From Spartobacteria bacterium (GTDB lineage Bacteria; Verrucomicrobiota; Verrucomicrobiia; Chthoniobacterales; UBA10450), in contig PLCN01000021.1 in assembly GCA_003134785.1 (NCBI GenBank), positions 62,001 through 126,000 on the forward strand: DNA of 64,000 nucleotides. The letters run 5' to 3'. This document shows, piece after piece, positions 3,797-29,510 of the stretch. Below the pieces are notes generated by a model, which did not search any database, was not told the origin of the DNA, and was given only the letters and a program-made list of their open reading frames with translations. The position numbers and the translations under genes are program-made. Positions within the stretch are counted from its first letter, which is position 1. Every line of letters begins with the position of its first letter.

Positions 3797-3852
3797 TCCT
3801 TCGCTCGACTACGGCGGAGAAGCGAAGATCGACGGTCATAGACCGCCGCTAC
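3797..3852. repeat. copy of the TGTAGCGGC / GCCGCTACA repeat family
   Basis: The sequence holds the hairpin half 'gactacggcggagaagc' followed by 'gatcgacggtcatagaccg' and 'ccgctacaat'. The same order of words recurs at 5740-5813, and the second half at 10302-10332. It lies just after the start of the STAS-like gene and before the csbD-like gene. Confidence 0.7.
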
Positions 3853-9089: not shown

Positions 9090-9569
9090 TTATTCTTCGG
9101 CGGTGAAGAAGCGGTCGGCGTAGAAGGCGGCGGCGGTTCGATTGTCTACGCCGAGTTTATCGTAAATCCGGCCCAGGTGTTTCTTCACCGTTCCGACTTT
9201 CAGGCCCATGATCTTTCCTATTTCTTCGCTCGTCTTCCCTTTCCTCAGCCAACACACCACCAACACTTCCTGCGGGGTCAGCTTCTTCTCCTCGACCACG
9301 CGTTCTTCCAGCAGAAAACATTGCGCGCCTTTCCGGCTGCGATCGACTAGACGGACGAAAACGATCCGCCCATTTCGCACCAGGCAGAAAGGAGTTTCCG
9401 GCCTGGTCCGGGCCCAGGAGCCGAGCGCTTCCGGGAGGCGATACCTGTCCGGGCGCGGCTCGAAATGTTCCTTCAAATAGCGCGCAGCTACCCGGCTGAG
9501 AAACCGGATACGGCCACCCGGCGCTACGATGAGCGCTCCGCAAACCTGTTCTGGGCGAGATTTCTTCAA
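9090..9569 (-). CDS. LuxR-type transcriptional regulator
   Basis: The protein has 159 residues. The C-terminal half holds a GerE/LuxR helix-turn-helix ('LTPQEVLVVCWLRKGKTSEE', 'GLKVGTVKKHLGRIYDKLGV'). The N-terminal half ('GALIVAPGGRIRFLSRVAARYL') looks like a small PAS-like sensor and has no receiver aspartate. The start is a TTG supported by GGAGGA five bases upstream. It stands alone, so its targets are unknown. Confidence 0.85.
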   Translation of the reverse strand: MKKSRPEQVCGALIVAPGGRIRFLSRVAARYLKEHFEPRPDRYRLPEALGSWARTRPETPFCLVRNGRIVFVRLVDRSRKGAQCFLLEERVVEEKKLTPQEVLVVCWLRKGKTSEEIGKIMGLKVGTVKKHLGRIYDKLGVDNRTAAAFYADRFFTAEE

Positions 9570-9899
9570 GGGGGTCCTCCGCTGCTGCCGAGCGATGTAT
9601 CGTGGAGTCCGTCAAAAGTCCGCAAGAATTTTCGCTCTTCCACCAGACGCAGCCACGCGAATGAACACATTCCCGAAGGGAAAAAGTGCCCTTCCGGACT
9701 GCGAAAAAGGAAGATTCACGAGGGAAAACCCGCGGGAGCGCCATCATTAGCCGCGGCTACTCCTTAAGGCGGTAGCGGATCAACCCCCCGTTTTGACAGA
9801 CTCGACTTCGTGAAGCCTCTCCCCTGGGACATCAGCGCACCTCCGCGAGAAGCGGTCAGCGCGCGATCAAAAGCCCGGAAGCCTCGGTCCTCTGCGGCT

Positions 9900-10214
9900 G
9901 CTCCCTCCAGAAACGGGCTGTCTCCCCGGGGAAATGGTGCGTTTCCTCAGAGAAACGTCGCGTCGCCTCGGAGAAATGCAGGGTCTCTCCGGGACGACGT
10001 CACTTCTCGTCAGGGAAAAGTCGCGTCGCCTCGGAGAAATGCCACGTCTCCTCGGAGAAATGCCGCTTCCCCCCGGCGAATTGGGCCGTCTCCTTGCGGA
10101 AACGCCACGTTCCCTCGGAGCAACGTCACATATCCTCGCAGCGACACCGCGATTCCCCGAGGCACCGTCGCGAATCGCCGGGGAAAAGGCGAACGCCACG
10201 AGGGAACGCCCCAT
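9900..10214. repeat. 21-bp tandem array, 15 imperfect units
   Basis: The block divides exactly into fifteen 21-base units with no indels. A typical unit is tcgcctcggagaaatgccac plus one base. Each unit keeps a small dyad such as TCTCC-tc-GGAGA or CCCCGGGG and a following 'gaaa' run. Because 21 is divisible by three, frames stay open on both strands and give low-complexity heptads such as 'SPRRNAT'. The array ends about 90 bp before a REP-type repeat and about 190 bp before the fibronectin-type gene. Either a repetitive low-complexity coding region or a structured non-coding array is possible; I favour non-coding. Confidence 0.8.
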
Positions 10215-10301
10215 TTTCACGATGTCAGAGGTCCGAAGGCAGAGATCAGACGGCGCTGGGACAACAAATGGATATCGCTTCCAGAGTCCCCGGAGGGACG
10301 A

Positions 10302-10371
10302 AAGATCGACGGTCATAGACCGCCGCTACAACTAAACCAGAAAGACGACGGCCAGAGGCCGCCGCTACAGA
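10302..10371. repeat. two copies of the GCCGCTACA repeat
   Basis: Two consecutive words, gatcgacggtcatagaccg followed by ccgctacaac, and then gacgacggccagaggccg followed by ccgctacag, show the dispersed repeat as a direct pair immediately upstream of the fibronectin-type gene. Confidence 0.7.
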
Positions 10372-10406
10372 AGAACAACAACCACAACGACAGGAGATAA
10401 ACAGGA

Positions 10407-11045
10407 ATGGATTACTTCAAAGCACGCGTCGATTACTCGAAGGACCCCGATGGGGCCTTGAGCGGTCCGGCGCATAACATCCACGACAAGCTGGTCCTTA
10501 ATGCGGCCAGTTTCCCCGCTCTGCCCATCACGATAGCGGCGTTTCTCGCCCTCATCACGACGTGGGACACCGCGCTGGGAGAATCGCTTAAAGGCGGCAG
10601 CGACCGCACCACCATCAAGAACGACGCGAGAGACGCGCTCGAGAACGCCCTCTTCAAGCTCGGCACCTACGTGAACCTGGTGGCCGATGGCAACAAAGCC
10701 ACCATCGACCTGAGCGGGTTCGACAGTTACAACACCACGCACGCGGTTGGCGGTGGCGGGGTCAGCTTCGTCCCGCAAAACGTGCGTTGGGAAGACGGGA
10801 ACGTGGCCGGCGCCGCGACCCTGCGCTGGAAAGGGGACGGCAAAGGCTCCCTCTACGAAGTGCAAACCTGCACCGCCGACCCCACCGTGGAAGCGAACTG
10901 GACCTACCGCGGTTCTTTTAGCGGCGGCCGGGCCGAGCTAAGCGGGTTCACGCCCGGCACGATCATTTGGGGCCGGGTGCGCAAGATCGGCACCGGCGGC
11001 GAAGTGGGCGGCTGGAGCGACCCCGCGCAAATACGAGTCGGCTGA
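10407..11045 (+). CDS. fibronectin type III-like domain protein
   Basis: The protein has 212 residues. The N-terminal half is helical ('NIHDKLVLNAASFPALPITI', 'RDALENALFKLGTYVNLVAD'). The C-terminal half (from about residue 120) reads as a fibronectin type III sandwich: 'VSFVPQNVRW', 'AATLRWKGDGKGSLYEVQTC', 'LSGFTPGTIIWGRVRKIG'. There is no signal peptide, so cytoplasmic or non-classical location is likely. A Shine-Dalgarno (AGGAG) precedes the ATG. A strong terminator follows, so it is monocistronic. Function unknown; binding or scaffolding is a guess from the fold. Confidence 0.75.
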   Translation: MDYFKARVDYSKDPDGALSGPAHNIHDKLVLNAASFPALPITIAAFLALITTWDTALGESLKGGSDRTTIKNDARDALENALFKLGTYVNLVADGNKATIDLSGFDSYNTTHAVGGGGVSFVPQNVRWEDGNVAGAATLRWKGDGKGSLYEVQTCTADPTVEANWTYRGSFSGGRAELSGFTPGTIIWGRVRKIGTGGEVGGWSDPAQIRVG

Positions 11046-26167: not shown

Positions 26168-26202
26168 AGCAACGTCCAACGCTCAACGTCCAACGTCCAA
26201 CG
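26168..26202. repeat. CAACGTC heptamer repeat
   Basis: Five successive heptamers of the type CAACGTC / CAACGCT form a clean tandem run (acgtccaacgctcaacgtcc onward). The same block recurs at 28376-28400, 28465-28497 and 29236-29265. Confidence 0.75.
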
Positions 26203-27136: not shown

Positions 27137-28234
27137 ATGAAAAAATTCACCAACTTACTGATCGTCTGTTCGCTGGCACTGGTTGGAGCCGTGATGGCTC
27201 AACAGCCACAACCGGAGGAGACACCAAGCAAAAAGCAGGGCCCTGAAAAAAAGCATCCGGCGGAAGTGAAGCCCGGACCGACGCATGCGCCGAAGCCTGA
27301 GGCCACGGCCGTGAAAGAGCCGGCGGCGACCCACACGCCGGCTGTGCCAAAGCAGGAGAAGAAGGCTTCCGGTGAAGAACCGGCCGCCGGCACGACGCCT
27401 CCCGCGAAGAAGCAGCAGCCGCCGCAGCGCACCAAAGAGAAGACGCCGGCCGCCAACGCGACGGCTTCGCCGAGTGCTACTCCGGCAGCACCCAAGACGA
27501 CGACTGCTACTCCGCCAGCAGCTAAGACGACGACTGCTACTCCCGCAGCAGCCAAGACGACTGCCACTCCGCCAGCAGCTAAGACGACGACTGCTACTCC
27601 CGCAGCAGCCAAGGCGACCGCTACCCCGGCAGCGACGGCATCGGTCAGCGCGGCTCCGTCCGTTTCGCCAACCAGCCAGACAAAGCCGCAGGTTAATCCA
27701 GCCGCAGCCAAGAAGCCGGATCCGCAGCAGGTGCAGCAGATCAAGACGCAGCACCAGAACTTTCACGCGCAGCCAAAGCCGGATAAGGTTCCGGCGGTCA
27801 CGTTCAGCGCGAGCTATCGGGTCCAGGGAAGCGAGCACTGGCAGGGGCCGCAATATGAAGTCTATCGCTCCTACCATCCGGAACGGCACGATCAGGGTTG
27901 GTATCGCTCGCATTACAATCGGGTGGAGCTAATCGGTGGCGGTTACTACTACTGGAACAACGGCTACTGGTATCCGGCGTGGGGCTACAGTCCTGCCGCC
28001 GAGTATTATGCTTACGATGCCCCGATCTATGTCGGTCAGAAGGCGGAGCCGCCGGACAAGGTGATCGCGGACGTGCAGGCCGTGCTCCAGGAGATGGGCT
28101 ACTACAAGGGTGACGTGGATGGATTGCTCGGGCCGTTGACCCGGGAGGCGCTTACCGCCTATCAGGCCGACCAAGGGCTCGTCGCGACACAGGTGATCGA
28201 CGAACCGACGCTCGACTCGCTCGGGATGGGATAA
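27137..28234 (+). CDS. secreted peptidoglycan-binding protein with Ala/Pro/Thr-rich linker
   Basis: The protein has 365 residues. A signal peptide (MKKFTNLLIVCSLALVGAVMAQ) leads to a long Lys/Pro/Ala/Thr-rich region containing tandem 'AAKTTTATP' repeats (nt about 27480-27630). A Tyr/Trp-rich block follows ('GGGYYYWNNGYWYPAWGY'). The C-terminal 60 residues form a PG_binding_1 domain ('VQAVLQEMGYYKGDVDGLLG'). It probably sits in the periplasm with the linker spanning or extending along the wall. A paralogue with a different linker is at 32887-33753. A terminator follows. Confidence 0.8.
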   Translation: MKKFTNLLIVCSLALVGAVMAQQPQPEETPSKKQGPEKKHPAEVKPGPTHAPKPEATAVKEPAATHTPAVPKQEKKASGEEPAAGTTPPAKKQQPPQRTKEKTPAANATASPSATPAAPKTTTATPPAAKTTTATPAAAKTTATPPAAKTTTATPAAAKATATPAATASVSAAPSVSPTSQTKPQVNPAAAKKPDPQQVQQIKTQHQNFHAQPKPDKVPAVTFSASYRVQGSEHWQGPQYEVYRSYHPERHDQGWYRSHYNRVELIGGGYYYWNNGYWYPAWGYSPAAEYYAYDAPIYVGQKAEPPDKVIADVQAVLQEMGYYKGDVDGLLGPLTREALTAYQADQGLVATQVIDEPTLDSLGMG

Positions 28235-28367: not shown

Positions 28368-28500
28368 GGCAACGTAAACGTCCAACGTCCAACGTCCAAC
28401 GGGGGAAGAGAGCGAAGGATGGAAGCTAACGCGGAGGGGACGAGGATTGAAGGCAGACAAGGCAAACGTCCAACGCTCAACGTCCAACGTCCAACGGCGA
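28368..28500. repeat. CAACGTC heptamer repeats, two blocks
   Basis: Two blocks (about 28376-28400 and 28465-28497) each hold several tandem heptamers CAACGTC, CAACGCT, CAACGTC. The sequence between them is purine-rich and has no gene. Confidence 0.7.
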
Positions 28501-29073: not shown

Positions 29074-29510
29074 TGTTAAAGCGGCCGGAAATAATGTGGC
29101 ACGAAATCGACTGATCTGATCGCATCTCAAGCGCTCAGTGAAAAGCTAGATCCAGAGTTCCGAGATCAGATATTAGAGAGCCCGCAGGTGCGAACGCCTA
29201 ACGACGGGGGAAGAGGGCGACGGAGGAGCAGGGAAACGTCCAACGCTCAACGTTCAACGTTCAACGGTGGAGAAGAAGTCGAGGGAAGGTAGGGGCGAGG
29301 ACAGAGGATTGAAGGCAGACAAGGCAAACGTCCAACTCCGAAAGCTTTGACTCGTGTGCCCCCCCACTCGGTCGTTTGACTTGCCCATCTATGTCGCACC
29401 GCTTCCCGCGGGCTCCATTCGCGAGCAGGCGTTCAACGTCCAATTGGAAAGGGAACCGAACGCCTAACGTCTAAGGCCTAACGTTTAACGCGAAGGGAAT
29501 CGGAAAGCGA
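29074..29510. other. gene-free repeat-rich stretch
   Basis: It contains heptamer repeats (29236-29265, 29324-29338, 29432), a segment 'tgcccatctatgtcgc' shared with 21268-21280, and a short segment (about 29115-29140) similar to the 3' end of the NERD gene. It appears to be a patchwork of fragments with no intact gene. Confidence 0.55.

Follow-up and report, generated by a model that had tools for sequence, protein, structure and literature searches.

Within the window, i.e., the whole stretch of 64,000 nucleotides that was analyzed, a tandem array of 21-bp units is located between two divergent genes. The first of them, on the minus strand at positions 9090–9569, encodes a luxR-type HTH regulator of 159 aa (Pfam GerE, E 7.5e-14) and is preceded by its own upstream region (9570–9834). 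The second, on the plus strand at positions 10407–11045, encodes a 212-aa member of the array-associated family, which is predicted to consist of an N-terminal helical bundle and a C-terminal fibronectin-III domain. The leader that separates the array from this gene (10215–10406, plus strand) contains two dispersed-repeat palindromes, at 10307–10325 and 10345–10365. The dispersed palindrome, ending GACCGCCGCTACA / GGCCGCCGCTACA, is found in the window at positions 3834, 5791, 10311, 10350, and 37002 (five copies vs. 0.2 expected, two of the five within the leader of the fn3 gene), and sequences similar to it were spotted by eye in genomes G005 and G073.

In G005, which belongs to the same genus, the luxR-type gene has a syntenic copy (79% identical), and blastn gives one 79% DNA match that runs from this gene through its upstream region and ends just before the array. 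At the syntenic locus a 21-bp array occupies the same place, and its sequence is different from that of the window array. Searches for the DNA of the window array in 7 further genomes of the genus, and for its unit-pair pattern in 82 others of the taxonomic family, gave no match. Only the window locus and the G005 loci were found to have a relative of the luxR-type protein next to the fn3-family gene, no luxR-type gene was listed near the other array loci found in the window's genus, and a search of the genome contigs with the luxR-type protein returned generic HTH matches only. The luxR-type neighbor was rejected as a general binder of the arrays, and the array as a LuxR-type operator, since most array loci have no luxR-type gene.

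The array, claimed by the earlier note at positions 9900–10214, is borne out by autocorrelation, shuffling and TRF. Identity over this interval is 0.595 at lag 21, 0.582 at lag 42 and 0.571 at lag 63, most other lags giving 0.13–0.36, and among 2000 dinucleotide shuffles the maximum identity at lags 5–69 never exceeded 0.397. TRF reported a period of 21 at positions 9920–10120, with 9.6 copies, 63% matches and 2% indels. The core, delimited by lag-21 identity and unit alignment (9921–10193), comprises 13 perfectly registered 21-bp units with the consensus TCTCCTCGGGGAAACGCCGCG; over 14 units, 84 mismatches to the consensus were counted. Unit alignment also places a degenerate unit at each edge: the 5′ one (9900–9920) matches the consensus at 11 of 21 positions, and the 3′ one (10194–10214) is 1 bp off register and matches at 14 of 21 when shifted by −1. 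The description of fifteen indel-free units was thus slightly generous: the array exists and has almost no indels, but it is somewhat shorter than had been stated. Other tandem repeats are present in the window as well. Clusters of a 7-bp repeat (AACGTCC / AACGTTC) lie at 26170–26202, 28377–28401, 28465–28499, and 29235–29269, its two-unit pattern giving 18 matches vs. 0.6 expected (21 equals 3 × 7, with no link shown). Further repeats lie at 1200–1312 (period 6/18) and 27471–27633 (period 30/57), the latter covered by a long ORF and resembling coding low complexity.

The profile of the 212-aa protein revealed a family whose members occur sporadically across the order (30 of 213 genomes at E ≤ 1e-15), with as many as 14 matches per genome, and which is rare in the phylum (7/383 genomes at a stricter cut-off). 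In the AlphaFold2 model of the paralog L174 (pLDDT 95.5) the protein starts with a helical bundle and continues into a fibronectin-III fold; Pfam fn3 is recognized in 14 of 23 members, and the structural matches cover residues 112–203. When the helical N-domain was used for a structure search, only generic helical bundles were retrieved, the best Z of 8.9 falling short of what is stated to be reliable for this kind of fold. With an acidic N-domain (median pI 5.4), the fn3-family protein is itself a doubtful binder of the array. Single-sequence tblastn against plasmid and phage collections returned no match to the family. The gene seems to decay often; fragments or disrupted copies are located at G005:C19:166180-168640 and on contigs C12, C20, and C24 of G002, and at the G005 site a luxR-type gene runs into the disrupted copy.

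One check proposed in the earlier note was to search related genomes for arrays with the same period, and such arrays were indeed found. The survey covered 74 full-length family copies with at least 250 bp of upstream DNA, with a period threshold of 0.42 that was chosen after the first arrays had been seen. The best upstream period is exactly 21, 42 or 63 bp in 57 of the 74 copies, it is 20, 22, 32, 41, 44, 52 or 62 (the last one twice) in eight, and nine copies have no period above the threshold. The periods that deviate from 21 cluster near multiples of 10–11 bp, not of 3. Downstream of the family genes, 37 control stretches gave 4 weak matches, and of 774 control chunks taken from the genus, 13 were above the same threshold, two of which are family arrays; on inspection, the 11 non-family chunks all proved to overlap with long open reading frames and, with few exceptions, to look like low-complexity coding sequence, L150 being less clear. 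Higher-order repeats of 42 and 63 bp and recently homogenized arrays exist, some arrays alternate A and B units at 42 bp, and TRF units are more than 90% identical throughout in L195, L200, L207, L212, L219, and L220. At L182, a separate 82-bp tandem repeat (ACCTGTAGGGCAACGATTCCTCGTTGCC...) occupies the stretch from 394 to 187 bp ahead of the gene and separates the gene from a 21-bp array.

The unit sequences are strongly different between loci, and the units are barely similar even where the paralogs are 70–80% identical. The paralogs L216 and L219 of genome G113 share flanking DNA that is 76% identical upstream and 72% identical from the leader through the gene, and blastn aligned no part of their arrays between these matching flanks. 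In a comparison anchored on the leader, in-register similarity exceeded background in 9 of 15 related pairs; for this reason the arrays probably diverged in place, and wholesale replacement of arrays between paralogs is weakened as an explanation. Paralogs retain the dyad register to the extent that their arrays are still homologous in sequence, and this retention does not count as independent evidence; the proposal that the register is kept independently of sequence was rejected, as it is absent in pairs without residual similarity. A weak profile, GAA-N5-TTC-like, is common to the arrays (coherence 3326 vs. 2401, s.d. 54, for permuted columns), and its palindromy was not significant. Taken at the level of the family, these results establish that non-coding arrays between genes exist as a class in which the period is fixed at 21 bp while the sequence is particular to each locus, and that this class is enriched upstream of a family of fn3-domain genes.

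Symmetry within the units was the other property claimed for the array. In the window array alone the dyad is real but weak, weaker than the earlier note suggested: it is visible as whole-unit symmetry (z = 2.9), but 5-bp stems, even the best one, do not surpass those of permuted columns (p = 0.43). Self-folding of this array gave z of −2.1 (sense) and −2.8 (antisense) against permuted columns and −1.96 against dinucleotide shuffles. Among 52 arrays, 18 have a significant dyad (column permutation, p < 0.05), where about 2.6 would be expected, and the pair layers that had not been used to choose the center show excess complementarity, with z of about 3.4 in three layers and 1.3 in the innermost one. 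A dyad-symmetric unit consensus, as in an array of dimer sites, is hence found at the family level, with a mixed picture for the window array alone, and spacing near whole helical turns is found with 21, 42, and 63 bp dominant. The units have no fixed orientation with respect to the gene; when both orientations are allowed, 25 of the 52 arrays flip. Purine content has a strong 21-bp harmonic and a weaker 10.5-bp one, whereas for AT steps in the unit columns of the 52 arrays the 7-bp harmonic (z 9) exceeds that at 10.5 bp (z 5.9), which is unpredicted by helical phasing alone.

The reading that we prefer, with a probability of about one half, is that the array is a duplex row of weak dyad sites, one every 21 bp, to which dimers would bind cooperatively as to an operator or an architectural element. 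It is likely that the units are dyad sites in helical phase, to be recognized by a DNA-binding protein that acts as a dimer. Weak palindromic sites repeated every 21 bp would each face the same side of the helix, and this spacing and symmetry would be kept within the order while the unit sequence drifts. Most probably, dimers of a DNA-binding protein would then occupy the row cooperatively, and the occupied row would serve the fn3-family gene at 10407–11045 as a multi-site operator or an architectural element. The earlier note had left the choice between protein-binding sites two helical turns apart and a structured RNA. The former fits better, because the 21-bp period is kept in unrelated sequences, the exceptions fall near multiples of 10–11 bp and the consensuses are dyad-symmetric, while protein binding, dimers, cooperativity and regulation by the array are what we infer from the sequence. 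The fast divergence of the units beside proteins that are 70–80% identical implies that either the binder changes too or its recognition is loose. A more far-reaching version, which we regard as tentative, would be a class of phased satellites in which each locus has its own dyad unit and a co-evolving binder at an invariant 21-bp spacing, so that the nucleoprotein row controls or marks genes for small proteins of the helical plus fibronectin-III type.

The arrays are not exclusive to the fn3 family. A restriction to it, suggested by the first 1.25 Mb, was rejected after two genomes of other genera, G107 and G112, had been sampled, where about half of the strong arrays do not adjoin the family. 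The whole sample comprised about 1.9 Mb of five genomes, and at a stronger threshold 17 of 17 strong non-coding tandem arrays had a period of 21 or 41/42. In 0.8 Mb of G107 and G112, further 21-bp arrays were found beside L265 and L288, which are distant matches to the family profile, as well as beside other small proteins (L272, L295, and L297), dnaK (L260) and a penicillin-binding-like gene (L270), the identities of all but L265 and L288 being read from the sequence; others are located in intergenic gaps near the 3′ ends of genes, e.g., L261 and L268. One unit type is present at five G112 contigs, some of which are contig ends and could belong to one array. The array upstream of dnaK in G107 (L260, 16457–16893) has the unit CCTTCGAAGG; the family gene L189, likewise in G107, has an array built of this same unit. 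The link between arrays and family is thus one of enrichment, not exclusivity.

These observations lend weight to the main rival, a satellite without function, in which copying or recombination in the lineage favors 21 bp, making and homogenizing the units, which persist at tolerant intergenic sites. The uniform period of the strong arrays whatever their neighbor, the positions next to dnaK, other genes or 3′ ends, the higher-order repeats of 42 and 63 bp together with recently homogenized arrays, and the recurrence of one unit type at several places in G112 would all be consistent with it. However, the strong enrichment upstream of one family (57/74 exact), the near absence of arrays away from that family in the window's genus, and a dyad symmetry in excess of composition argue against it, and it names no process that yields exactly 21 bp. 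We regard it as less likely than the preferred reading but as the strongest of the rivals.

A transcribed RNA, with the array in the 5′ leader of the gene or in a separate transcript and forming a row of hairpins, is less probable still. In its favor, the array precedes the gene on the same side, and it folds better than column-permuted arrays. However, the fold z averages −2.50 in the sense and −2.41 in the antisense direction, a difference of −0.09 (s.e. 0.15) that indicates no strand preference, the orientation of the units is arbitrary, and no excess of G-U over A-C was detected in the arrays. An early covariation signal disappeared when stems were chosen from the column marginals and partners were displaced as a control; under these conditions within-unit covariation is nil (local excess −0.003, the same as for displaced partners), as expected of half-sites that each match a motif and do not pair with each other. 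The Rfam search of the array gave no family above the gathering score, the best matches being far below it. The structured-RNA alternative offered in the earlier note is in consequence unsupported.

The two remaining explanations are very improbable. A low-complexity heptad-repeat protein could be imagined from the window locus, where all three sense frames of the core array are open, a GTG ORF of 196 aa (9810–10400) and a minus-strand ATG ORF of 149 aa are open, and differences by codon position in the 196-aa frame (220, 283, and 326) suggest a mild third-position excess. Both ORFs are unsupported as genes, in agreement with the earlier view that there is no convincing gene start, and the only Pfam match of the 196-aa ORF is below the cut-off. 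Across the family the heptad-coding reading fails: of 52 arrays, 15 have stops that block every sense frame and 10 have stops in all six frames, and periods of 22, 41, 44, 62, and 64 bp, which are not multiples of 3, occur; at this level the arrays do not encode protein. A TIGR-Tas or CRISPR-like guide-RNA array, suggested by tandem units that adjoin a gene family and by an A/B alternation at 42 bp superficially like TIGR dual repeats, was rejected, since a Nop-domain protein is present in 0/8 array-bearing genomes while positive controls were detected, several arrays with units more than 90% identical leave no variable spacers, and no second copy of the window array was found in its own genome.

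Phased rows of protein sites are known in principle. Iteron arrays at plasmid and phage replication origins consist of direct repeats of about two helical turns that form a row of protein sites. The arrays described here share such direct repeats, but they are chromosomal, with many loci per genome and a unit that differs at each locus, and they lie beside an fn3-domain gene whose family gave no single-sequence tblastn match in the plasmid and phage collections. In multi-site operators and enhancer arrays, helically phased dyad sites lie upstream of a gene. In contrast, the present arrays share the period across loci and not the sequence, they face either way, and some of them are found apart from the family. 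Bacterial VNTRs (tandem repeats between genes) and REP palindromes are likewise intergenic, repeated and partly palindromic, but REPs are one sequence throughout a genome, whereas the present arrays have the period in common and a sequence peculiar to each locus. TIGR arrays are tandem arrays next to a specific gene family with repeats that vary across loci (TIGR-Tas; PMC12045711). The arrays reported here likewise adjoin one gene family and have locus-variable repeats, although they have no Nop protein and no fixed repeats with hypervariable spacers. No description of such arrays was found in the open-access literature, and a categorically new system is possible.

The gene family and the wider class of arrays, both absent from the earlier note, are the main finding. 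Tandem arrays are normally recognized by a common sequence, while here the spacing is the common feature, with dozens of arrays that differ in sequence but stay at exactly two helical turns. If proteins do not bind them, then some process makes 21-bp units. If they do, the arrays would be a case in nature of selection on helical phase and dyad symmetry separately from sequence, connected with a gene family that has not been described before and reaches 14 copies in a genome.
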